Below, in pieces: positions 8,139-56,119 of a DNA stretch of 64,000 nt; position 1 is the first letter of the stretch; every line of letters begins with the position of its first letter. The notes beneath the pieces were generated by a model that was given only the letters and a program-made list of their open reading frames with translations, was not told where the DNA came from and made no database searches. Source of the DNA: Haladaptatus sp. R4 (GTDB lineage Archaea > Halobacteriota > Halobacteria > Halobacteriales > Haladaptataceae); assembly GCF_001625445.1 (NCBI RefSeq), contig NZ_LWHG01000003.1, positions 1-64,000 of the forward strand, in the 5' to 3' direction. The position numbers were made by a program, and so were the translations under genes.

Positions 8139-9938
8139 CTACTCGACCGTGACGCTCTTTGCGAGGTTTCGCGGTTTGTCGATATCGCGGCCGAGGAGTC
8201 GTGCCGTGTGATACGCGAGTAGTTGATACTGGACGTTGACGAGTATCGGCGCGAGCGTCGGATTCGTCGTCGGGACGGACAGTATCTCGTCGGCGACCTC
8301 CTCGACGGACGATTGGCCATCGGTGACGACGACGAGTGGCGCATCGCGCGCCTTTACCTCCTCCGCGTTCGAGACGGTTTTCCGGGCGATTTCGTCGTCC
8401 CCGACGATCGAGACGAACACCGGCGTTTCCTCCGTCACCAGCGCGAGCGGACCGTGTTTGAGTTCACCCGCCGCGAACCCTTCCGCGTGTTCGTAGGTTA
8501 TCTCCTTCATCTTGAGCGCGCCTTCCAACGCGACGGGGTACTGCATCCCTCGCCCGATGAAGAAGTTGCCGGAACTGTCCACGAACCGACGCGCAACCGC
8601 CTCGGCGTTGCTCGTATCGAGTACTGTTTGTACTCGTTCGGGCAATTCGGTCAGCGCCGAAACGAGTCGTCGCGTTTCGTCGCGCGACGACTCGTCCGCC
8701 GATAGCTGAAGGACGAACAGTACGAGTGTAACGAGTTGGCTCGCGAACGTCTTGGTCGCAGCGACGCTGATTTCGGGCCCCGACCGGATGTACAGCGCAT
8801 CGTCGCATTCCCGTGTCGCGGTGCTCCCGATGACGTTCGTCAGCGCCAGCGTGTGCGCATCGCGTTCGTTGGCGACCCGAAGCGCCGAGAGGGTGTCCGC
8901 CGTCTCGCCGCTCTGGGTGACGCCGACGACGAGCGTTCCGTCCCGAATCGGTGGCGGGGACATCGCGTACTCGCTCGCCAGAAAGGTCTGTGCCGGAATC
9001 CCACGCTCGCACAACAGGTTCGCGCCGTAGAGCGCCGCGTGATAGCTGGTTCCACAGGCGACGAGGTGGACGGAATCCACGGATCGGTAATCGGCGGCAG
9101 CGTCTAGCGAGACGAACTCCCCGGCGAATCGGTCACGCAGACACTCGCGGAGCGCGCTCGACTGTTCGTAAATCTCTTTTATCATGTAGTGGTCGTGGTT
9201 ACCTTTGGCCATCGCTTCCGCGTCCCACTCGATCGTCGTCCCCGTCTTCGACTGTGGGGTTCCGCTTCTATCGACGATGGTGTATCCGTCCTCCGAGAGA
9301 TAGGCGAACTCTCCGTCGTGGAGATGAACGACGGTGTCGGTTCGCTCGACCAGCGCGGTCACGTCGCTCGCGATGTACACCCCGTCGCCGACGCCGAGGA
9401 CGAGCGACGAATCCTTCCGCGTCGCCATCACTTCGTCACACGACTCGAACACCGCTGCGATGGCGTAGCTCCCCTCCAGTTTTTCGACCGCGAGTCGAAA
9501 CGCCTCCTTCGGTGTCGCCCCTCTATCGAGATAGTTGCCGATGAGGTGCGGAATGACTTCAGTGTCAGTCTCGCTCTCGAATTCGTGGCCCAACCCGTGC
9601 AGTTCGTCGCGCAGGGAATGATTGTTTTCGATGATGCCGTTGTGGACGACCGCAACCCTGTTCTCACAGTCCGTATGCGGATGTGCGTTCTCGTCCGACG
9701 GCTTGCCGTGCGTGCTCCAGCGGGTATGGCCGATTCCAACGGTCCCACCGATGTTTTCTTCGTCTCGAACCGCTCCGACCAGTTCGTCCAGTTCCCCTTC
9801 ACGCTTGAGAACGTGAATCCGGGAGTTGCTGACGGCCACCCCTGCCGAATCGTAACCACGATATTCCAACTTCGCCAACCCGTTCAGCAGTGTCGGAACG
9901 AGATCCGTTCCGCCCGTACACCCGATGATACCACACAT
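8139..9938 (-). CDS. glmS: Glutamine--fructose-6-phosphate aminotransferase (isomerizing)
   Basis: 599 residues, full length. It begins MCGIIGCTGG, so Cys2 is the N-terminal amidotransferase nucleophile. GHTRWSTHG, the glutaminase loop, and NGIIENN follow. The C-terminal half has two SIS domains (VACGTSYHAAL, GVTQSGETADT, GRGMQYPVALEGALKMKEI, HAEGFAAGELKHGPLAL) and ends KSVTVE, the conserved GlmS C-terminus. It makes glucosamine-6-phosphate, the entry to UDP-GlcNAc and the amino sugars needed by the glycan genes that begin 8 kb further on. A 19-nt direct repeat lies just upstream. Confidence 0.97.
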   Translation of the reverse strand: MCGIIGCTGGTDLVPTLLNGLAKLEYRGYDSAGVAVSNSRIHVLKREGELDELVGAVRDEENIGGTVGIGHTRWSTHGKPSDENAHPHTDCENRVAVVHNGIIENNHSLRDELHGLGHEFESETDTEVIPHLIGNYLDRGATPKEAFRLAVEKLEGSYAIAAVFESCDEVMATRKDSSLVLGVGDGVYIASDVTALVERTDTVVHLHDGEFAYLSEDGYTIVDRSGTPQSKTGTTIEWDAEAMAKGNHDHYMIKEIYEQSSALRECLRDRFAGEFVSLDAAADYRSVDSVHLVACGTSYHAALYGANLLCERGIPAQTFLASEYAMSPPPIRDGTLVVGVTQSGETADTLSALRVANERDAHTLALTNVIGSTATRECDDALYIRSGPEISVAATKTFASQLVTLVLFVLQLSADESSRDETRRLVSALTELPERVQTVLDTSNAEAVARRFVDSSGNFFIGRGMQYPVALEGALKMKEITYEHAEGFAAGELKHGPLALVTEETPVFVSIVGDDEIARKTVSNAEEVKARDAPLVVVTDGQSSVEEVADEILSVPTTNPTLAPILVNVQYQLLAYHTARLLGRDIDKPRNLAKSVTVE

Positions 9939-9961
9939 GAGAAATTATTCTCCGGTGCTCC

Positions 9962-34781: not shown

Positions 34782-36227
34782 TCAAATCTTATCGAAGACG
34801 ACAAGGTCGCCCTCCTCGAAGCCGAGGAGCCAAATCACCGCGAAGAAGACGGGAAGCGCGATGATTCCGCCGGTGAAAATCCGTCCGAGTTCCAGCACCG
34901 GAAGGCGACTTCCGAAGACGAGGATCGGAACCGTGCAGACGAGTGCGACGGCACCCTTCCAGTACTTGAGGGAGTACGGTTGGACGCCGAGGAAGTGGTA
35001 AATCTCCGAGATCCGGAGGATGTTCAACAGGACGAACGAGGTGGTCGTGGCGAGCGCCGCACCGACGATTCCGAACTGGTTGATGAGGAAGTAGTTCAGT
35101 ACGAAGTTCAGCAGGGCAACGACGGTCGTGTTGTAGAGTTGGAGGCGTTCGTGGTTCGTCATGATGAGTAGATATCCCGATGGACCGGTACTCGCGGCGG
35201 CGGTCTGACCGATACAGAGTACGATGAGCGCCATCTGTGCCTCGTGCGACGAGACGCCGAACAGTCCGAGGATTTCCTTCGCGTAGATGGCGACGAAGAG
35301 ACACCCGAGGACCGTGATGTACGTTATCCACTTGGTGATCGATTCGAAAATCTGTTGGAGGTGTTCCCACCGGTCCCGTTCGTACAGGTCCGAAATCATC
35401 GACGGGAAGATGGAGTTGACCGCCTGCAACACGACGAGCAACAGCACGGACGTCTGATACGCGGCCTGATACGCGCCGACGTCGCTCGGCGGCAGAAAGA
35501 CGCCGAGCATCAGGATGTCGGTCCACGTGAGGAGGTACTGGATGACCGCGGCCAAGGTGAGCGGCAGGGCGAACCCGAGCACCCGCTTCCCGTCGACGCT
35601 CGGTCGCGTGGCGAACGAGATGACGTCCTCGTCCACCAGAAAGTAGAGGACGAGTGCGGTACCGACGACGAACGAGAACACGTAGCCGTAGATGACGGCG
35701 GTGAGATCGTGGACGACGTACGCGCCGAATCCGACGAGGAGTATCGCGACGACCGACTGGCCGATATCGCGGATGTACACCTGATACTTCGTCTCCTTCA
35801 ATCCCTTCGTCAGCGCGATTCCGACCATCATCGTCCCGAAGAACGGGATTCCGAGGGTGAACAGGCTCGTCGGTTCGAGCGCCACCCCGAAGAGATGGTC
35901 GAACCGATAGTCGAGCAAAAACACGCCTCCGGCGAGAACCCCGCCGACGAGAAACGGCAGCGCGAGACAGAACAGGGCGGTGCCCGAGAGCGCGCTATCG
36001 TCTCCGTCCGTGACGTACTTCGGGACGAACTTCTGTGCCGCATTGTCCAATCCCAACCGGGCGAGGACGCCACCGGCCTTCATCACGACCATTCCGAAGG
36101 CGAAGTATCCGAGCGCCCCGGTCCCGAGGCCGTTCGCGATGACGATGTTGAGGGCGTAGCGAAGACCGCGTCCGAACAGACCGCCGACGAACGCGACCGA
36201 TGCGAGTCCAGTGAGTGATTTACGCAT
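34782..36227 (-). CDS. Wzx-type polysaccharide flippase (MOP superfamily)
   Basis: 481 residues with ~12-14 TM helices, intact. Start MRKSLTGLASVAFVGGLFGR, then IVIANGLGTGALGYFAFGMVV, ARLGLDNAAQKFVPKYV and later DILMLGVFLPPSDVGAYQAA, the family's 'D..mlg.fls...vG.Y..A' segment. Members export lipid-linked oligosaccharides across the membrane; AglR of Haloferax is proposed for dolichol-linked glycan. With initiator, polymerase and pyrophosphatase genes nearby this is the likely flippase for the same product. Confidence 0.92.
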   Translation of the reverse strand: MRKSLTGLASVAFVGGLFGRGLRYALNIVIANGLGTGALGYFAFGMVVMKAGGVLARLGLDNAAQKFVPKYVTDGDDSALSGTALFCLALPFLVGGVLAGGVFLLDYRFDHLFGVALEPTSLFTLGIPFFGTMMVGIALTKGLKETKYQVYIRDIGQSVVAILLVGFGAYVVHDLTAVIYGYVFSFVVGTALVLYFLVDEDVISFATRPSVDGKRVLGFALPLTLAAVIQYLLTWTDILMLGVFLPPSDVGAYQAAYQTSVLLLVVLQAVNSIFPSMISDLYERDRWEHLQQIFESITKWITYITVLGCLFVAIYAKEILGLFGVSSHEAQMALIVLCIGQTAAASTGPSGYLLIMTNHERLQLYNTTVVALLNFVLNYFLINQFGIVGAALATTTSFVLLNILRISEIYHFLGVQPYSLKYWKGAVALVCTVPILVFGSRLPVLELGRIFTGGIIALPVFFAVIWLLGFEEGDLVVFDKI

Positions 36228-43143: not shown

Positions 43144-44433
43144 ATGATCTCCCTCCGAGCAAAGGAATCTAATAACACAATTGTCATTCTCTTCTCACTA
43201 CTTGTTGTGTCGAGCGTGCTCACCCATACTGTTCGAATCCCGAGGCTAATAGGATATATTGCAGTAACGATCCCCACTGCGGGGATTATTCTTCGGTATC
43301 TCTTAGCTCACCCTGACTGGAAATCAATAGATCGTGTCTCCCTTGGATTTTTGGGGGCAATCTGGCTCGCATTTATCGCAGCGTTCGCACTTAATCCGAG
43401 CTTCTGGAGTGGTATTCGAACGGCGGTCTTTATCGGATTCTCTTTTTTGGTTGTCTGTGTACTCCCCACAATTATTGATCAGAGGTCATTCGAATACGTG
43501 TTGTCAGTAATTTCGGCAGTCTTGTGTCTTGTAGCCATCGTGATCTGGGCGACAGGAACCTACTTCACGATCGCAGGACATCATCCCGGATGGTATTTCC
43601 CAACTCCCCTGCCAATTATTGGCAAAATCGACCCAATCGCAGGAATATTAGATGGTTCAAATCTGATGGGTGCGGTCTGTGTGATTGGAGCTTTTATTTC
43701 TATCGCACACTATTTCCGTACTCGTAATGCATGGTTCTCATTAATTACTGGTCTCCTTGTTATCGGATCTATCTTATCTGCGTCTCGGACTGCGATTCTC
43801 TCGCTTGCAGCAGGACTTGGTATTCTTGCTGCGTACTACGTCGGTGGACGCCGTTTAATGACGCTTTGTACCCTCGTGGGCCTCGCTTGTCTCGCGACAG
43901 TGCTCTTATCGGAGTTTGGATTTATCCCATCTGTCGGTCCGCTTGGATCGATTCGGTTCACCGGAAGAATCGAACTGTGGCGTTCGACGTGGCGCGCAGT
44001 TAGTGACTCTCCTTTCGTTGGATGGGGGGCAGTAAACACAAAAGAGTTGATTCAACCCTATATGACAAGCTCTCGCACCGCAGGGCGTGGAATCCACAAT
44101 TCATATCTTCGGATGTTCGCAATGACGGGATTCATCGGGGGGGTGTCGTACTTGGGATTGACAATCGTTGCAGGTATCCGGAGTTGGAAGGCGGCCGTAA
44201 CACCAGTCCAGGCAACCTATTTCGCGTTATTTATTGCTATTGTGGTCATGCAGGTATTCAATGCAGGCACGATTTTCGGATACGGGCTTCGCTCATTTCT
44301 TTATGCAGTCGTGACTGGATTTGCATTGACCGCTTACCGGACCGAATCTACCCGCCTCGCTTCCACGAGCGGATCTGACTATTATTCCTACGCAATCACC
44401 GTTTTTCGGACAGTGATCCGGGACAATCCATAG
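43144..44433 (+). CDS. O-antigen ligase/polymerase-like (Wzy/WaaL) membrane protein 1
   Basis: 429 residues, intact, ~11 TM helices. A large periplasmic-type loop contains GWGAVNTKELIQPYMTSSRTAGRGIHNSYLRMF, where the 'HNSYL' resembles the conserved H(N)xxL of WaaL-like ligases and polymerases. SRTAILSLAAGLGI is the common SRxxxL motif. It shares this plan with the genes at 44751 and 54692. In an archaeon it would polymerise or ligate lipid-linked repeat units on the outer face. Part of the AT-rich island. Confidence 0.85.
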   Translation: MISLRAKESNNTIVILFSLLVVSSVLTHTVRIPRLIGYIAVTIPTAGIILRYLLAHPDWKSIDRVSLGFLGAIWLAFIAAFALNPSFWSGIRTAVFIGFSFLVVCVLPTIIDQRSFEYVLSVISAVLCLVAIVIWATGTYFTIAGHHPGWYFPTPLPIIGKIDPIAGILDGSNLMGAVCVIGAFISIAHYFRTRNAWFSLITGLLVIGSILSASRTAILSLAAGLGILAAYYVGGRRLMTLCTLVGLACLATVLLSEFGFIPSVGPLGSIRFTGRIELWRSTWRAVSDSPFVGWGAVNTKELIQPYMTSSRTAGRGIHNSYLRMFAMTGFIGGVSYLGLTIVAGIRSWKAAVTPVQATYFALFIAIVVMQVFNAGTIFGYGLRSFLYAVVTGFALTAYRTESTRLASTSGSDYYSYAITVFRTVIRDNP

Positions 44434-44750: not shown

Positions 44751-46061
44751 ATGAAATACAAAACTCCAAATAACTCTCCAAATACGATACCTCCTCAGAA
44801 AAGGTCAAAAAGTATTGGAATAGGCAAATATATCAAAATAATATTGTTTCTATCCCTCCTCAGTACGCAGGTCAATGGTATTCCGACGTTGGTCGGTTAT
44901 CTAGCTGTCATCGGTAGTATCGCTGTTATCGTGGTTGTTGCGGTGAAAAATGAGATGGTGAATTTCCAATACGATCGATACGCTCTGGGAACTATCTTAC
45001 TTTTCAGCGTTTTCTTCATCGCCGATCTCATAATCACGCCGACGGTAACGGAATTCATCCGAACGTGTGCATACCTCAGTGGAACGATCAGTTTGCTCTT
45101 CATCATCCCCAATCTCGTTCATGTCCGTGACGCGAGATACATCGTTACTCGGATCACCGCGCTATTGGTGATGATCGGTCTTCCGACGATGCTCGTTGGA
45201 GATATCGGTCTTCTCGGCACACACGTCCTCGCATGGCCGATGACGTTTGCACTGATCCCGGGTTCCGCTGGCAGCAAGGTCCACGTGATGCAAAGCATCT
45301 TCGCGAATCCGAGAATGCTTAGCTTCCTTACGACGATAGCACTTCCGCTGTCGCTAGGGGAAACTATAGACGATTACCGTCAGGGCTCCCTCGCAGTCCT
45401 CGCGGTGAACGCGTTCGGCGTCTACGTGACGCAGTCACGCGCCGCCTGGCTTGGGCTTGCTGGCGCTGCCGCCGTGTATTTCTGTTACCGGGTGACAGGA
45501 GAAAAGCTGGCTACGCTCTCCGTTGTCTCTGGGATTACGGTCGTCGCAGTCGGGTTCCCACTGGCCGTTCTCATCCACTGGACGCCGATAACGGCGGTCA
45601 TCAACCTCACCGGACGTGGAGAAATCTGGCAGACGGTGGCGAACTTGGTTGTCCAGCATCCTCTCCGTGGGTACGGAGCGGTTGATACGGTGCAACTCCT
45701 CGCACCCCATCTCCCGTCCGAGCACGTTGGAAAGGGAACGCACAACTCCTACCTCCGCGCAGCGTTGATGGGTGGTATCGTCGGATACATCTCGTACCTC
45801 GGCCTGTGTCTCTATGCGGCAGCACAGTCGGTGAGGGCGGGACACAACGGATGGTGGTCGGTTGGGGGTGCTGTAATCACCATTCTCATCATGCAGGCCT
45901 TTGCGTCCTTCAGTTTGTTCGGAATCGGATTACGATCGGGAATGTTCGCACTCCTCCTCGGGTATGTGTTCATGGGCGCCCAGAGTCCGGGAACGGTTAT
46001 CGTATCGACTCCAACGCTTACCGCGACGATTCGTCGGGTGAACAACGTGCTTACACGGTAA
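44751..46061 (+). CDS. O-antigen ligase/polymerase-like (Wzy/WaaL) membrane protein 2
   Basis: 436 residues, intact, ~11 TM helices. The basic N-terminal 28 residues precede TM1. SRAAWLGLAGAAAVY is the SRxxxL motif; GYGAVDTVQLLAPHLPSEHV and GTHNSYLRAALMGGIVGY form the external loop with the His-Asn-Ser. It is a diverged paralogue of the gene at 43144. The 5' half is AT-rich and the 3' half approaches the surrounding GC, so the island boundary lies within or just after it. Possibly specific for a different repeat unit. Confidence 0.83.
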   Translation: MKYKTPNNSPNTIPPQKRSKSIGIGKYIKIILFLSLLSTQVNGIPTLVGYLAVIGSIAVIVVVAVKNEMVNFQYDRYALGTILLFSVFFIADLIITPTVTEFIRTCAYLSGTISLLFIIPNLVHVRDARYIVTRITALLVMIGLPTMLVGDIGLLGTHVLAWPMTFALIPGSAGSKVHVMQSIFANPRMLSFLTTIALPLSLGETIDDYRQGSLAVLAVNAFGVYVTQSRAAWLGLAGAAAVYFCYRVTGEKLATLSVVSGITVVAVGFPLAVLIHWTPITAVINLTGRGEIWQTVANLVVQHPLRGYGAVDTVQLLAPHLPSEHVGKGTHNSYLRAALMGGIVGYISYLGLCLYAAAQSVRAGHNGWWSVGGAVITILIMQAFASFSLFGIGLRSGMFALLLGYVFMGAQSPGTVIVSTPTLTATIRRVNNVLTR

Positions 46062-48026: not shown

Positions 48027-49320
48027 ATGAAACTTAGCATCGTCGGGAGTGGCTACGTGGGAACGACCGTCGCCGCCTGTTTCGCCGACCTCGGACACTC
48101 GGTCACCAACATCGACATCGACGAGGACATCGTCGAACAACTCAACGAGGGACAGGCCCCCATCCACGAACCCGGATTGGACGACCTCGTCGCCGAGCAC
48201 GGTGGAACCCGACTCACGGCGACGACGGACTACGGTGCAGTCCGCGAAACCGACGCGACGTTCCTCGCGCTACCGACCCCGTCCCGTCCGGACGGTAGTA
48301 TCGACACGTCGATCATCGAGGCGGGAGCGCGTTCGCTCGGCGAGGCGTTGGAGTCGAAAGAGGACTACCACCTCGTCCTCCCGTCAAGAGTACCGTCGTT
48401 CCCGGAACGACCGAGGACGTACTCGGGTCCATCATCGAGGACGCTCGGGCAAGACCCGAGGGAAGGACTTCGACGTGGCGATGAACCCCGAATTCCTCCG
48501 TGAGGGAAGTGCGGTGGATGATTTCCTCGCCCCGGACAAAGTGGTTCTCGGAACGGAGAACGAACGTGCGAACGAACGGTTGTCGGCGGTTTTCGAACCC
48601 CTTATCGAATCGTCCGAACCCGCCGTGGTCGAGACCGGCATCCGCGAGGCGGAGATGATCAAGTACGCGAACAACGCGTTCCTCGCCACGAAGGTCAGCC
48701 TCGTCAACGAACTCGGAAACATCTGCAAGGAGTACGACGTCGACGCCTACGAGGTCATGGACGCCATCGGTTTGGACGACCGTATCGGCGAGCGATTCCT
48801 TCGCAGCGGCGTCGGATGGGGTGGAAGCTGTTTCCCGAAGGACACGGCCGCGTTGGTCGCCGCCGCTCACGAGAAGGGATACGAACCGTCCCTCGTCGAA
48901 GCGGCCATCGAAGTGAACGAGAAACAGCCCAAGCGGTTGCTCGAACTGCTCGAAGACCACGTCCCGCTTCAGGGCAAGCAGATTGCGGTGCTCGGACTCG
49001 CGTTCAAGCCGGGAACCGACGACGTTCGTAACTCCCGTGCGATTCCGATCATCGAAGGGTTACAGGACGGTGGCGCGACAGTCGTGGCGTACGACCCCGT
49101 GGCGACCGAAAACATGCGCGAACACTTCCCCGACATCGAGTACGTCGATTCCGCACGGACGGCGCTCGATGGGGCCGACGGGGCGCTCGTCGTTACCGAT
49201 TGGGACGAGTTCGCCGCGTTGGACGACGAGTTCGATTCGATGCGGGATCAGGTCGTCGTGGACGGCCGTCGTATCGTTCAGCGCCGCGAGGGTATCGTCT
49301 ACGAGGGTCTCACCTGGTGA
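48027..49320 (+). CDS. aglM: UDP-glucose 6-dehydrogenase (AglM type; frameshifts near 48381 and 48451)
   Basis: About 430 residues. Start [20 protein letters not shown] (NAD motif). Between the two breaks the frame reads [18 protein letters not shown], then [36 protein letters not shown] holds the catalytic Cys. [18 protein letters not shown] and [13 protein letters not shown] complete the C-terminal domain. It oxidises UDP-glucose to UDP-glucuronate. One base restored at each break (for example AAG from CAAG in GGGCAAGACC) makes a normal family sequence. Pairs with the aglF-like gene. Confidence 0.93.
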
Positions 49321-49546
49321 TCCCGAACGGGGTTCGTTTCGCTGTCGGAATCAGTTACTGACGAACGCTTTTTTCGAATCTCGGACGTTCAGCGTCGTCA
49401 CCGTTATTGCGGGGGAACCGTCTCTCCCGATTCTATATTCCAGTCTCAATTTAATTATCCGATATTGTGTCTCGTGACACGCATGTTTAACACAATTCCA
49501 GTTTTCTTGGAGAAAACTACTTCAATCGGTGTTGTAATGAATACCC

Positions 49547-51180
49547 ATGAGATCGTACGGGATGCCAGTCTCAACGAAAAATACGCTTCGTATCGTCGCC
49601 GTTCTGTTGATCGTCGCCCTCTTGGTCCCGGTTGCGTTTACGGCCCTCACGACGAACAAGGCGCTCGCAACGGACGGGGAGTTACGGAAGAACGCACAGA
49701 ACGTCACGTTCATTTCCACGCAGGGAGGGTCGACGCACGTCTACAAACACGCCGGTAAACTCGTGGCCGTCCAAACAGATACGAAACGGCTCATCTGGAA
49801 GCACGACAAGTATCGCCGATACATGGATATCGATCCGATCGGACGGGATCGAATTCTGTTCGTCGCGGGTGAACAAACCGGCCCGAACGAGTTCCAGCGC
49901 GTTGCCGTACTGATGAATTGGCGTAACGGCACCGAACTGGAAAAGTTCGACGTGCCGCACGATACGCACGATATCGACTATCTGGGTGGCCACCGCTATG
50001 CGATCGCTGATAAGTATAACAACCGTGCGTATATCTACAATTCCCGGACGAACCGGACGACCTGGGAGTACAAATTCGCGAATCACTACCCGAAGAGCGC
50101 GGGTGGCGGCAAGACCCACTTGAACAACATCGCGCTGGGTAACAACGGTACGTCGTCGTTCTCAGCCCTCGCAACTACGACCGAGTCATTCAGGTCGATA
50201 AAAAAACGAAGAAGACGGACTGGACGCTGGGACACGAGGACGATTACGACATTCTCTACGAGCAACACAATCCGCTCGTCCTCACGCGTGACCCGCTGAC
50301 GGTGCTCGTCGCGGACAGCGAGAACAACCGGATCGTCGAGTACCAGCGGTCGGACGGCGAGTGGAAGCTTACTTGGGGGTATCGAGGCGACCTCCTCTGG
50401 CCGCGCGATGCGGACCGACTTCCGAACGGAAACACGCTCATCGGCGACACGCTCAACGACCGAGCCATCGAGGTCACCCCGGACCGAAAGATAGTCTGGG
50501 AGTATCACGTCGAACGGTCCGTCTACGACGTGGAACGACTCCAGTACGGTGACGAACCGACCGGGCCGACCATGGCGAGCCAGCGTGACCGATTTGACGA
50601 GGTCATGCCGTCGAAGGCGGATTCCGAGTTGGCCTTCTTGTCGTCGTTCGAAAAATCGTATCGAAAGTCGTTCCAAATACTCACGTGGGTGCTCCCGGAC
50701 TGGGTGACCATGCGCGAGTACGGGTTCCTCCTCTCCGCGACGATGTTGGCCCTCGGATGGGTCGCCACCGAATCGCTGTACGTCGTTCCGCTATCGCGAC
50801 TTCGGGACGCCACGGTCGTCGATCGATTCGCTGCGAGTACAACCCGGCTTCCGACCGCTCGACTCGCGACGGGTGTCGCGGCCGCTGCGGTATTGATGGG
50901 TCTCTGTCTGATCGTCCTCCTTCCGGTTTCCGGCGGGCAGACGACCCTCTATCTCGGTCTCGGACTGCTGTTGCTGACACGGGGAATCGGAACGCCGACA
51001 CTGTTGGACGAGGTAATTCCCCGAAGGATCCGGGCGGCGGTAACAGTCGGCGTGTATCTGTGTTCCCTCCTCGGTGTGGTCGGGTTCATCGCGCTCGCGG
51101 TCACCCGCCCCGATTCCGGCTTGGTGTATGCGGGCTTCGCGGCGCTCCTCCTGTTGGCGACTGTGAACCGAGCGAGATAA
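49547..51180 (+). CDS. Arylsulfotransferase-like (ASST family) membrane protein (frameshift near 50155)
   Basis: About 545 residues. An N-terminal TM (LRIVAVLLIVALLVPVAFTA) is followed by a beta-propeller domain with repeated blades: THVYKHAGKLVAVQTDTKRL, DTHDIDYLGGHRYAIADKYN, LNNIALGNN, NYDRVIQVDKKTKKTDWTLG, HNPLVL and LVADSENNRIVEYQ. The C-terminal third has about five TM helices (LLSATMLALGWVATESLY, GVAAAAVLMGLCLIVLLPV). The break near 50155 is repaired by one base. ASST enzymes move sulfate between phenols without PAPS; the group's function in haloarchaea is unproven. An in-frame Met at 49562 is an alternative start. Confidence 0.82.
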
Positions 51181-51468: not shown

Positions 51469-52913
51469 CTACTGTTCGTCTTCGCCACTGACGAGGTCTC
51501 CGACGTCCCTGACCACTCCCCATAGCTGTCGAACCACGATTTGTACGTCGAACCAGAACGACTGCCGACGGATGTACTCGATGTCGTATCGGAGTTTCTT
51601 GGCCGGTTCGTGTCCAGTGGCATCGCTGATCTGTGCGAGACCGGTCAAACCGGGCTTGATGAACCATCGTTTTCTCCATTCGACGACGCCCGTTTCGATG
51701 TCGGAGTCCAGTTCAGGTCGCTCCGGACGTGGACCGACGACACTCATATCTCCCGCCAGAATCGACCACAGTTGTGGAATCTCGTCCAAGTGAGTCCGTC
51801 GGAGGATTTTCCCCACACGCGTGACGCGAGGGTCGACTTCCCCCTTGTCCTCTTCGCTTAATTTGGCCCCCGTTCCGGCTTCCGCGTCGGTAACCATACT
51901 CCGGAACTTGTACACCTGGAACGTGCCGCCGAACTCCGCGGTTCGTGCTTGGCTGTAGAACACGGGACCGGAACTGTCGAGTTTGACCGCCAGCGCGATG
52001 AGGCCGAGGAGCGGCGCGAACAGGAGGAGACTGCTGGCTGCGAACAGCACGTCGAACGACCGCTTCAGGAGGTAATCCTGCCAGTCCCACGGTTCGAGCG
52101 CGATTTCGATGAGTTCGTCGTCTTCCGTCGCCTCCGCCTTGGTGAGAACGCTGTCTATCTGTCTACGGGGTGCCTTCGCGGTGACGCCGTGTTTGTAACA
52201 CGTGTCGAGCGCGCCGAAGAACTCGGCTCGGTCGGTGGTCGAGAACGCCAGGATGGCGGTATCGACGCTGTTTTCGAGCAGGACGTCCTCCAACCGGGAG
52301 AGTCCGCCGAGGCGTTCCACGCCCGCCAACGGTTGTTCCGTGCCGCCGTCCGGGGCGACTTGCTCACGTTCCCGGTCCGTGATTTCGGCCCCGCTCAACG
52401 GCGAAACGTACCCCAACACGGGTGTGTTGATAACGGTGAGAACGTCCCGAATGTAGCGGATGTCGTCCCCGATGACGATGGGACAGTCGGTTTTGATGGC
52501 CGGTCGGCGGCGGATGGTAACGAACAGAAGCGGGAGGAGAACGCAGAGAAACGCGGCGACGATGATGAGCGTCGAGCGCGGGAGTCGGTACGTATAGTCG
52601 AAGTACCCTATCGTCGCGAGTCCGAGAACCGCGATGAGGAGCCGTTTTTCGGTGACGAACAGGGTGTCGAGTATTCGCCGCGGACGCGGCTTGTACATCG
52701 GGGCAAGGCACGCCTAACGACGAAGACCGTGAGAAGCCCGGCGATACCGATCTGCCTCGGCGGCAGTTGTACCGCCTGAAGCTGGTCGATTATCGGGAAC
52801 GTAGTCGTTACGAACCCCTGTATCGAGGAGCTATTGGCGACGATGACCGCAGCAGAGACGAAGAGGATCGTTCCCGTGATACTCGTGAAACGATAACGAA
52901 ATCCGGAGGGCAT
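51469..52913 (-). CDS. Polyprenyl-phosphate sugar-1-phosphate transferase initiating polysaccharide synthesis (WbaP/WcaJ type; frameshift near 52705)
   Basis: About 480 residues. Four to five N-terminal TM helices (two before the break near 52705) are followed by a Rossmann-like middle domain (CPIVIGDDIRYIRDVL). The C-terminal phosphoglycosyltransferase domain has KRSFDVLFAASSLLLFAPLL (re-entrant helix), YKFRSMVTDAE, RRTHLDEIPQLWSILAGDM, VVGPRPERPE and GLTGLAQISD. This enzyme loads the first sugar-phosphate onto the lipid carrier, a hallmark of bacterial EPS loci. Its presence implies a pathway separate from AglB-type dolichol initiation. Confidence 0.93.
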
Positions 52914-53175
52914 TATTTAACTGACGTAGGTATTACAAAGTCATAAATGCTACGTCCAATTAACGCTTGTAATCATTTTTGAATCTATTATAATAAATAA
53001 GGTAATAGTTTGATAGATATTCATATGTTATTCTTCGTTACGGTTGGGCGGTTCGCCTCCCGACGGTTTTGTCAGCGTCACGAAACGAGAGGCGGATGGA
53101 CTCGGTAATCTTTCCCTACACATTCGTAGAGGAATCATTACAATAGTGATCGTCACCGTTCCTCGTAATTAAGAC
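52914..53175. other. AT-rich intergenic region
   Basis: 262 nt upstream of both the initiating transferase gene (minus strand) and a tiny membrane protein gene (plus strand). The 52950-53030 part is very AT-rich. It must hold at least one promoter. No other gene seen. Confidence 0.4.
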
Positions 53176-53298
53176 ATGAACGCGAACGTGGATACCACTC
53201 GGTCGTCGGAGTGTTACCCGTTCTGGAAGGGGTACCTCCTCGCAGTGGCCTTGTCGATCGTTTTGTGGGTTCTCTTCATTGGTCTCCTCGTTTTCTAG
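53176..53298 (+). CDS. 40-residue single-helix membrane microprotein A
   Basis: Starts MNANVDTTRSSECYP, then one hydrophobic helix from residue ~15 to 40, ending IGLLVF. Its helix pattern F-W-x2-[YF]-L-L-x-V-x2-S-x2-L-W-V is shared with the 38-residue protein encoded at 54502-54618. This indicates common descent and purifying selection, so both are likely real genes. It lies between the initiating transferase and the uppP-like gene. No family recognised. Confidence 0.6.
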   Translation: MNANVDTTRSSECYPFWKGYLLAVALSIVLWVLFIGLLVF

Positions 53299-53392
53299 GG
53301 ACGTGGAAACGAGTGGACCGTCGGACGACCCATCGTGATCTGAATATTACATAAATGCTATCTTGGATGAACCGATATACTACAACGAAACG

Positions 53393-53473
53393 ATGACGAG
53401 GGATGAAGCGTTGATAGCCATCGGAATCATTCTCGGCGTGTGCGGACTCGGATATACGATAATCGGAATTTGA
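53393..53473 (+). CDS. 26-residue hydrophobic microprotein
   Basis: Starts MTRDEALIAIGIILG and carries a single glycine-rich hydrophobic stretch to the end (GYTIIGI). It ends 3 nt before the stop of the convergent uppP-like gene. It is short enough to be chance, but the start, charge pattern and location beside microprotein A make it worth recording. Confidence 0.35.
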   Translation: MTRDEALIAIGIILGVCGLGYTIIGI

Positions 53474-53476
53474 GAA

Positions 53477-54300
53477 TCACAGGGTAAAGAGGAACACGCC
53501 ACCGAGGACCGCGAGCGTTCCGATACCGACGCACACGGCCCAGAAGGACACCCGTTGACGACCCGTAGCAGGGCGTCGATGGTAATATACCCGATAACGG
53601 CGCTGGTTCCGATGGCGATGACCGCCGCTTTCAGTGAAACGGTCGGGAGTGCTCCCGTTTTGAGGACGACCAACATCCCGGCACCCGCCGCCGCCGGAAT
53701 GCTCAGCAGAAACGAGAGGCGAAACGCGTTCACGCCGTCGTATCCCCGGAAGAGGAGCGTTCCGGCGGTCGTCCCCGACCGGGAAACGCCCGGAAGGATG
53801 GACAGGCCTTGCATACTCCCGACGAGCACCGCATCCTGCAGCGTTGGCGTTTCCCGGTTCCCCAGTTCGAACTGGTCGGCGGTTCGAAGCAGGATACCAG
53901 TTCCAATCAGCAGGACGCCGATGAGCGCCACAAATCCGCCGCCAGCGAGGTCAGAGACGACCGCATCGAGGGTTACGTACGCGAGGATACCGACGATACC
54001 CGACGCGAGCATCGCGACGACGATGAACGACAGTTCGGCTTGTTGCTCATCGAACGCCGAACGAGGACGCCACGTCGGAAGCGATTCGAGAACGCGTTGA
54101 ACCTCGTCGCGATAGTACACGGTCGCCGCGATAGCCGTTCCGAGGTGCAGAAAGAGCGAAAACTGAACGGCCGCTTTCGGCTGTTTTCCCATCGCACGGA
54201 GGAACAGCGTGATGTTGCCCTCGCTCGATATCGGCAGCCATTCGAAAATTCCCTGCAGAATACCAGTTACAAATGCGATTACGAGGGAGGTATCGACCAT
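53477..54300 (-). CDS. UppP/BacA-like undecaprenyl-diphosphatase (frameshift near 53551)
   Basis: About 274 residues, eight TM helices. Signature 1 is GIFEWLPISSEGN, where bacterial enzymes have E-G-x-T-E-[WF]-L-P-[IV]-S-S-T-G-H; signature 2 is PGVSRSGTTAGTLLFRGY with the catalytic Ser/Arg. Near 53551 one lost G (AACGGGTGTCC) hides the true end WAVCVGIGTLAVLGGVFLFTL. It recycles the polyprenyl-diphosphate carrier released by polymerases or ligases. I start at MVDTSLVIAFVTGI, ending at 54300. Confidence 0.9.
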
Positions 54301-54501
54301 TAACGGTGGGATATTTCGCAAAGAACATAGGCGATTCGGTTTCTGTCGTTTCCCGTTAGTTCGACGACGATACACAATGATATACTGATTACGTGTTCGA
54401 TTAAAACTCCGGTGTGGATCGAACGTGCCGTCTGTCTACTTAATGACTGTCCATGTTAACCCCACAATAAATGGATCTACAGACGTGAAGTGATACTATA
54501 G

Positions 54502-54618
54502 ATGGCGATCGCAGACCCCAAGTTAGAACTCCCAGAATTCGCTGGCTTCTGGACCGCATTCCTACTTTCGGTACTCGTCTCCCTGTTCCTGTGGGTCGCA
54601 ATATTCCGGCTATTCTAA
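54502..54618 (+). CDS. 38-residue single-helix membrane microprotein B
   Basis: Starts MAIADPKLELPEFAG; the helix runs from residue ~16 to 38 and ends WVAIFRLF. It shares the FWxx[YF]LLxVxxSxxLWV pattern with microprotein A 1.3 kb away, on the same strand. The two flank the uppP-like gene. It is convergent with the third O-antigen-ligase-like gene, 73 nt from its stop. Function unknown; a small subunit of a polymerase or pyrophosphatase is one possibility. Confidence 0.6.
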   Translation: MAIADPKLELPEFAGFWTAFLLSVLVSLFLWVAIFRLF

Positions 54619-54691: not shown

Positions 54692-56119
54692 TCAGTCGAG
54701 GTAGCCGCAGATGAGATAGCCGAACACGAGCGCCGAGAGTATCGAGCCAATCGCGACGTTGAACAGCGAATATGCTTCGAACATCTGATGGACCGCGAAT
54801 CCGAACGCGAACGCGAGCATCGCAACGTCGACGCTGTCCCGACGGACGATTCCTTCGAGGATACTTCCCCCGACGAGTGTGAGGTACGCGAGGCCGCCAA
54901 CCACACCGACCTGGAGGAATATCTCGACGTAGGAGTTGTGCGGCGAGTGTCCGCGAATCCTCTCGACGGAGATGAACGGGGCAATGACGTCGTGCGTGTT
55001 GACGACCCCGTATCCGAACGCTGATGGAGCGTGGTAGACGGCCTGAACGCCCGCTTTCCAGAGGACGAATCGACCGTTCGTGTCTATCGGCACTATCGAC
55101 AGGAAGATTCCACCGATGAACAGGACCGTCATCGCTCCCAAACCGACGACGGTGAACGGGAGACTCCGACGGTCGAAAGCCAGGTATCCGACGTAGATGA
55201 CCGATGCCAGGCCGAACGCGAGCCACGACGACCGGGAGTAAGAGAGGACGAGGGCGAGGACGTTCAACACCAATAGCGGTATCGCCATCGAGGCCGCGAC
55301 GTACCGCCTTTGTCGTACGGAATCGCTCGCCAACACGAGCGCTCCGAACGCACCCGCGAAGGCGACGATTCCGGTGGTGTTCGGGTTCGAGAATATCGAC
55401 TGGAGGAAATGGGTTTGCCCGAAGAGCGGGAGGTCGAACGTCGCGTGATACAGTTGGATTTGCAGCCACGACAGTTGGTAGTTCCCGACCACGTACGCCG
55501 GAAGACCCACCAAGGCGACGAATCCGGAGATGAGCGATACGGCCCACAGGAAGACGTCACGATTGACGTATCTCGGCAGGAAAAAGAGGCTCAGTCCGAA
55601 GACGAGCGCCACGTACACGACGAACGATGCCTTCGTCGACCCGGCACTCATCTCGTTGACGTGATAGAAATACACCCCGAGCAACACCGAATACGCGCCG
55701 ATGAACAGCGCCCGACTTCGGACGAACTCCACGAAGCGATGGCCGAGAATCGGGTACAGAACGTACAGTATGTAGACGAACGCGACCTGGAAGGTCCGCC
55801 CATCCGGCGGAATGTACTTGTTGTGTTGTCGCAGGAGGACGAACGTCAGCAGTATCAGTACGGACACTTGTGCGACGTGTAGCCACAAGTTCCGGTCCCG
55901 GTTGTAATAACTGTACATGAGCAACAAAACCGGAGCGAGGTAGAGATAGAGCATGTCGATATGAAACGATCCGTACTGTTCGGGTGCGTTCGGCACGCGA
56001 AGAAGAACCGCGACGAAGAGGAGCGGTATCAAAAGCAGTTGGAGTAAGGCTATCGGCTGAAACTCGCCGGTAAGGGGATTCAGGGATACGGAGGTCGTTC
56101 GTTGGTCACGGATACTCAT
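54692..56119 (-). CDS. O-antigen ligase/polymerase-like (Wzy/WaaL) membrane protein 3
   Basis: 475 residues, intact, ~12 TM helices. SYSRSSWLAFGLASVIY is the SRxxxL motif. The external loop has GYGVVNTHDVIAPFISVERI and GHSPHNSYVEIFLQVGVVGG with His-Asn-Ser. It is GC-rich like the host genome, unlike the two similar proteins in the AT-rich island. Its position next to uppP and the initiating transferase suggests it is the resident polymerase, while the island copies were added later. That ordering is inference. Confidence 0.87.
   Translation of the reverse strand: MSIRDQRTTSVSLNPLTGEFQPIALLQLLLIPLLFVAVLLRVPNAPEQYGSFHIDMLYLYLAPVLLLMYSYYNRDRNLWLHVAQVSVLILLTFVLLRQHNKYIPPDGRTFQVAFVYILYVLYPILGHRFVEFVRSRALFIGAYSVLLGVYFYHVNEMSAGSTKASFVVYVALVFGLSLFFLPRYVNRDVFLWAVSLISGFVALVGLPAYVVGNYQLSWLQIQLYHATFDLPLFGQTHFLQSIFSNPNTTGIVAFAGAFGALVLASDSVRQRRYVAASMAIPLLVLNVLALVLSYSRSSWLAFGLASVIYVGYLAFDRRSLPFTVVGLGAMTVLFIGGIFLSIVPIDTNGRFVLWKAGVQAVYHAPSAFGYGVVNTHDVIAPFISVERIRGHSPHNSYVEIFLQVGVVGGLAYLTLVGGSILEGIVRRDSVDVAMLAFAFGFAVHQMFEAYSLFNVAIGSILSALVFGYLICGYLD

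Follow-up and report, generated by a model that had tools for sequence, protein, structure and literature searches.

Conserved single-helix microproteins beside wbaP in a Haladaptatus polysaccharide locus are candidate accessory proteins of lipid-carrier glycan assembly

What are proteins of 40 residues or fewer doing among the enzymes of a haloarchaeal locus for a surface polysaccharide? The question arises from a 64,000-nucleotide stretch of Haladaptatus sp. R4 DNA, here called the window, in which an earlier sequence-only reading had noticed two small plus-strand reading frames on either side of a uppP-like gene. Both are as it described them, each with an ATG start: micA (53176..53298, plus strand) encodes a 40-residue single-helix microprotein, MNANVDTTRSSECYPFWKGYLLAVALSIVLWVLFIGLLVF, with the helix pattern FWKGYL...S...W, and micB (54502..54618, plus strand) encodes its 38-residue paralogue, MAIADPKLELPEFAGFWTAFLLSVLVSLFLWVAIFRLF, with the helix pattern MAIA..P.F..FW.AFL...SLF.W. 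The motif proposed for them, F-W-x2-[YF]-L-L-x-V-x2-S-x2-L-W-V, is found in the two proteins, which have F-W-x9-S-x3-W in common. Between them, on the minus strand, lies a gene for a uppP/BacA undecaprenyl-diphosphate phosphatase (53477..54303; PF02673, E = 6e-51), the last ~25 residues of which are read in another frame. The other neighbours that had been named are also present, as a Bac_transf gene for a WbaP-type initiating sugar transferase (51469..52913, minus strand; PF02397, E = 1e-58; N-terminal part in another frame) and a Wzy_C gene for an O-antigen ligase/Wzy-like polymerase that adjoins micB (54692..56119, minus strand; PF04932, E = 9e-13).

The suggestion that the likeness between micA and micB exceeds chance is borne out by profile comparisons and by shuffling. 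A micA profile was built from other genomes, with the window's copies left out, and applied to the window and eight related loci, 5,535 reading frames in all. First came the micA copies, joined by a single relative from a different locus of Haladaptatus sp. DYF46 (G003), then all micB copies, and then, after a gap, noise; the micB profile gave the same outcome in reverse, with micA ranked above unrelated reading frames. When the helix residues were shuffled, the real micA/micB score was reached in one of 5,000 trials in one test and in none of 5,000 in the other, and profile-profile comparison of the two gave P = 1e-9. Taken together, these results identify micA and micB as paralogues, and by sequence both belong to a single family, specific to Haladaptatus, of predicted single-pass membrane microproteins.

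The microproteins of the window are 26-40 residues long and have hydropathy maxima of 2.3-3.0, and AlphaFold2 models micA as one helix, with a pLDDT of 94-95 across its hydrophobic half. They share with single-helix accessory microproteins a length below about 60 residues and one transmembrane helix, predicted here for micA. In micA of G003 and G004 only two or three residues stand ahead of the FW, so that any function has to reside in the helix. On an alpha-helical wheel the invariant residues F, W, S and W are confined to a 100-degree arc; the conservation moment is greatest at the angle of an alpha helix, although this peak is not significant by permutation (p = 0.07). Conservation of one face is therefore no more than suggestive, and the F/W/S/W face looks as a docking face would be expected to look.

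The comparison set comprised nine Haladaptatus genomes, among them G003, H. litoreus (G005) and H. caseinilyticus (G008). Eight of the nine carry the micA/micB family, one of the eight (G001) as a nonsense-broken copy. Five genomes, G003, G004, G005, G006 and G008, have a micA orthologue beside wbaP, and its residues F, W, K, G, Y, S and W do not vary. For micB, G003 and G004 have orthologues, G007 has a relative that has moved and adjoins wbaP, and the G001 copy is interrupted by an in-frame TAG. The sequence-only reading had named a dN/dS near 1 between orthologues as a result that would refute it. In every pair compared pN is below pS, and for the nearest pairs pooled it is far below, with differences at 55.3 of 307.7 non-synonymous sites (pN 0.18) against 42.7 of 97.3 synonymous sites (pS 0.44; Fisher p = 5e-7). 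By this comparative measure the microproteins are real genes under purifying selection at the protein level.

The range of the family is narrow. A search of 394 genomes of the order returned no match at E<0.005 outside Haladaptatus, the best outsider having E = 0.0056 where true family members score 1e-9 or better, and a scan of 84,980 species with the micA pattern confirmed Haladaptatus alone. Neither protein matched anything in the PDB, no Pfam or NCBIfam family was matched beyond one member at E = 0.24, and nothing relevant to Haladaptatus polysaccharide or to such microproteins was among the literature matches listed. More distant relatives were also seen within the genus. Contig C25 of G003 encodes, outside any glycan locus, a longer and weaker micA relative with FWKGLVVGAVFAFLLW (L052, about 9761-9958, minus strand), which has IclR-like and PhzF-like neighbours, and G007 and G001 (L017 / L184, L006) encode a protein of two helices, the first of which resembles micB (FWTALFLSSVFGLFLW), beside a histidine-kinase-like ORF and a UspA-like stretch; the neighbours in both cases were named by reading the sequence.

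Which of the neighbouring enzymes, if any, the microproteins belong with can be judged from the arrangement of the locus across the genus. The order wbaP, micA, micC (a third microprotein gene, described below), uppP, micB, wzy is identical in the window (G000), G003 and G004, with the microproteins opposite in direction to the enzymes. G005, G006 and G008 keep wbaP-micA-uppP-wzy without micB, and the polymerase gene at 54692..56119 has an orthologue in the same place in G003, G004, G005, G006 and G008. In G007, and in the decayed copy of G001, the locus is rearranged, with a wzy-like gene, the microprotein and wbaP consecutive on one strand; uppP of G007 lies ~3 kb from the microprotein. Given this rearrangement, and the presence of uppP without micB in G005, G006 and G008, the constant neighbour is wbaP and not uppP. 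All strong copies of the family (E<1e-8) are inside the wbaP locus, and each Haladaptatus wbaP locus of this type has a family member adjoining wbaP. G002, the sole Haladaptatus genome without wbaP and uppP matches, is also without micA and micB, and in G001 the microprotein, with its in-frame TAG, and the adjoining wbaP copy, with an in-frame TGA, have decayed together. The wbaP copy of this G001 locus (L048, 8100-9960) also has a frameshifted N-terminus.

A second wbaP elsewhere in the G001 genome, read without stops, has no microprotein near it, and the wbaP and uppP neighbourhoods of Halorussus (genus name inferred from the family) contain no short hydrophobic ORF with the motif. Since these enzymes occur without them, the microproteins are not core subunits and are dispensable for the chemistry. 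Paralogy, single-helix architecture, coding status and association with glycan genes, all put forward by the sequence-only reading, are thus supported. Its expectation of homologues beside glycan genes in other haloarchaea held within Haladaptatus only, and its idea of a part in lipid-carrier recycling beside uppP keeps the association with glycan genes, while the link to uppP itself is weakened by G007, by G005, G006 and G008, and by Halorussus. WbaP appears the better candidate partner than UppP.

The microprotein genes also appear to carry control elements of their own. A candidate promoter/operator of micB (54437..54470, plus strand) consists of a TATA-like TACTTAAT followed by an imperfect inverted repeat, GACTGT-N13-ACAAT. 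Aligned micB upstream regions from five genomes, the moved G007 and G001 copies included, have TA(T/C)(T/A)TAA(T/A)GACTGT in common, with an ACA(G/A/C)TA-like sequence 12-13 bases after GACTGT; the inverted repeat ACTGT...ACAGT has exact arms in G003, G007 and G001, whereas those of the window and G004 are imperfect. This element accompanies every micB copy, including the moved one, and is absent from loci with uppP but without micB, and it therefore belongs to micB. When its own genome was scanned, the sole match with 2 mismatches was the micB site; a wider regulon under this operator was rejected, as the remaining matches, with 3 mismatches each, do not exceed the control level. In the divergent wbaP-micA gap, alignment of six genomes reveals two conserved blocks, one close to each gene: GTAGAGGAATCATTACAATA upstream of micA (53126..53145, plus strand), a probable promoter/operator element, and CATAAATGCTACGTC on the wbaP side (52942..52956, unstranded), a probable wbaP promoter. 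By sequence, then, micB has its own conserved upstream promoter-like element and micA probably does too, which would imply separate promoters, that of micB probably under the control of a repressor.

We propose that the helix of micA or micB docks within the membrane on one of the multi-pass enzymes of lipid-carrier glycan assembly, where it would tune the activity or assembly of that enzyme, and that the microproteins would be switched by their own promoters rather than made in a fixed ratio with it. The partner would most likely be WbaP, placed first because of the constancy of the wbaP neighbourhood, followed by Wzy or Wzx, with UppP the least likely. We give this account, of accessory helices acting on a membrane enzyme of the WbaP pathway, an even chance of being correct; a helix docking on a multi-pass enzyme of the locus would be the simplest explanation of what is seen. 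Any function for the microproteins is here read from their position and conservation, and in weighing these the synteny of six genomes was taken as one inherited arrangement and not as six independent facts.

A competing explanation is that these are independent, stress-type small membrane proteins that have been carried along by synteny and act on the membrane itself or on another partner. The conserved promoter-like element of micB with its inverted repeat would suit such proteins, as would the occurrence of the neighbouring enzymes without microproteins in other genomes, and the C25 relative of G003, which lies away from glycan genes, counts for this explanation; that relative and the two-helix one of G007 and G001, with its histidine-kinase-like and UspA-like neighbours, count against an accessory role. 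On the other hand, adjacency to wbaP is kept even in the rearranged G007 locus, which speaks for an accessory role, and the presence of the family tracks wbaP in the nine genomes, with close copies only among glycan enzymes. Overall, we consider the stress-type explanation unlikely, if still a serious contender. Also counted in favour of the accessory role is the recurrence of a helix from the same locus, that of micC, as the C-terminal extension of a polysaccharide flippase.

While the pair of microproteins was confirmed, the sequence-only reading had missed micC, a third conserved microprotein between micA and uppP (53393..53473, plus strand; 26 residues, MTRDEALIAIGIILGVCGLGYTIIGI). It is conserved in G003, G004 and G008, and better so than micA and micB, with 1 non-synonymous versus 5 synonymous changes between G003 and G004. 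An intact micC was not found in G005, G006, G007 or G001, G005 having a degenerate trace, and the public H. caseinilyticus plasmid record, the one annotated record consulted, has no gene at micA or micC in a gene table that is incomplete by its own description. In whole-genome searches with micC, what ranked next after micC itself in most Haladaptatus genomes was the same helix, near the C-terminus of a Polysacc_synt flippase of 736-790 residues with a Thr-rich end, and the reverse search with flippase tails as query recovered micC of G008, G004 and G003. Each is the other's next best profile match after its own family, profile-profile comparison gives P = 5e-9, and the real score was reached in none of 10,000 shuffles. 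The two have a GILL..xGIGYAF core in common, although the haloarchaeal tail helix is fused to a flippase of ~750 residues and followed by a Thr-rich stretch, whereas micC is free-standing. It is likely from these matches that the micC helix is akin to the flippase tail helix, with the doubt that attaches to helices of ~20 residues. Polysacc_synt flippases that carry this additional C-terminal helix together with a long mucin-like tail rich in Thr and Ser occur in all nine Haladaptatus genomes (9/9), and tailed forms occur also in other families with weaker conservation.

This kinship bears on the idea that the microproteins are detached transmembrane segments, micC from the flippase tail and micA and micB from another enzyme, which complete or modulate Wzx or WbaP in trans. 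The reciprocal match that beats 10,000 shuffles speaks for it, and so does the locus's own Wzx-like flippase (34782..36227, minus strand; PF01943, E = 1e-17), the C-terminus of which is without the micC-like tail helix. However, helices of 26 residues hold little information, intact micC is missing from the four genomes named above, and the best match of micA to a larger protein of the locus, this same flippase, is not significant (E = 0.4). We regard such an origin by detachment as decidedly improbable, and we think it improbable that micA, micB and micC are free helices plugged into the Wzx/Wzy/WbaP machinery in trans. If they were, archaeal polysaccharide assembly would be tuned by exchangeable, separately regulated single-helix modules, with micC a detached relative of the flippase tail. 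A related candidate, that the micA helix was copied from the FWKG helix in the local flippase, was rejected (E = 0.4, with a different register).

Small hydrophobic toxins, of a type I toxin-antitoxin system or bacteriocin-like, would have the size, the one helix, the hydrophobic end, the nearby paralogues and the promoter-like element observed here. We nevertheless hold this to be very unlikely: the placement by wbaP is stable, viral contigs and plasmid collections gave no match beyond Haladaptatus, no PHROG was matched below E 0.04, and Rfam detected neither a match in the region nor an antisense antitoxin, in a search that unknown antisense RNAs would escape. It is scarcely credible that these are peptide leaders or regulatory ORFs whose translation, rather than product, controls the neighbouring genes, for although the short ORFs adjoin divergent promoter-like blocks, they are opposite in direction to wbaP and uppP in six genomes and therefore cannot be leaders of either, and it is the amino-acid sequence that is constrained, the helix being conserved and not codon runs.

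The account that we prefer, of helices accessory to an enzyme of the WbaP pathway, would place micA and micB within the general kind of single-helix accessory microproteins to which CydX, KdpF, RmpD and DltX belong. RmpD of Klebsiella, of 58 residues, binds Wzc and sets capsule chain length (PMC7512549, PMC10294653). Like micA and micB it is a tiny single-helix membrane protein, and it tunes a Wzy-type polysaccharide pathway from outside the core chemistry. Its C-terminal half is highly positive (PMC7512549), whereas the chains of micA and micB stop inside the helix or immediately behind it and have no strongly positive C-terminal half; its gene lies in the rmp operon together with its regulator, whereas micA and micB are inside the biosynthetic locus. 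No sequence kinship between RmpD and the microproteins was found, and the host of the latter is an archaeon.

The D-alanylation of teichoic acids requires DltX, a small protein from the dlt operon (PMC5541007), which is similarly encoded with membrane enzymes, in its case ones that modify an envelope polymer. However, dltX heads the dltXABCD operon of these enzymes, whose reaction depends on it, while in most genomes micA and micB have the reverse orientation to wbaP and uppP, and wbaP and uppP persist in relatives that lack the microproteins. No dlt-type gene was seen among the genes inspected, rather than searched by family, around the microproteins. CydX, a 37-residue member of cytochrome bd oxidase (PMC4325964), resembles micA and micB in length, in its single helix and in the lateral docking assumed for them; it accompanies its enzyme widely in bacteria, in contrast to micA and micB, which are confined to one archaeal genus while wbaP and uppP are not.

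By analogy, micA and micB are most likely like RmpD or DltX in role, but they are members of neither family. The microproteins are new by name and confined to one genus, although their general kind is known, and they most probably serve the lipid-carrier polysaccharide machinery as accessory or regulatory helices particular to this lineage, with a partner and action that we infer. Annotating small membrane proteins is difficult, and knowledge of them in archaea is scant. Here, three microprotein genes, in two families by sequence, combine comparative proof of coding with a fixed place in a polysaccharide locus, and they make it possible to test, on a concrete example, whether haloarchaeal lipid-carrier glycan assembly has lineage-specific regulators. 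Kinship between micC and the flippase tail would additionally illustrate how a free microprotein may be related to a helix that is part of a larger protein.

Finally, the window carries signs of its draft assembly. The missing N-terminus of wbaP is read in the ORF at 52608-52913, and the open frame upstream of its ATG spans only 6 residues in the window versus 74-103 in six of seven relatives; the C-terminus of uppP, SFWAVCVGIGTLAVLGGVFLFTL, is found in a second frame at 53477-53551. Draft sequence errors are a likelier explanation of these apparent frameshifts than pseudogenes. Within 48049-51180, an Ugd-like gene has an N-terminal part that is seemingly out of frame, and the ORFs 49547-50299 and 50302-51180 look like one split gene, both further signs of indel errors. 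The locus also contains three O-antigen-ligase/Wzy-like genes, two of them in tandem (43144-44433, 44751-46061 and 54692-56119).
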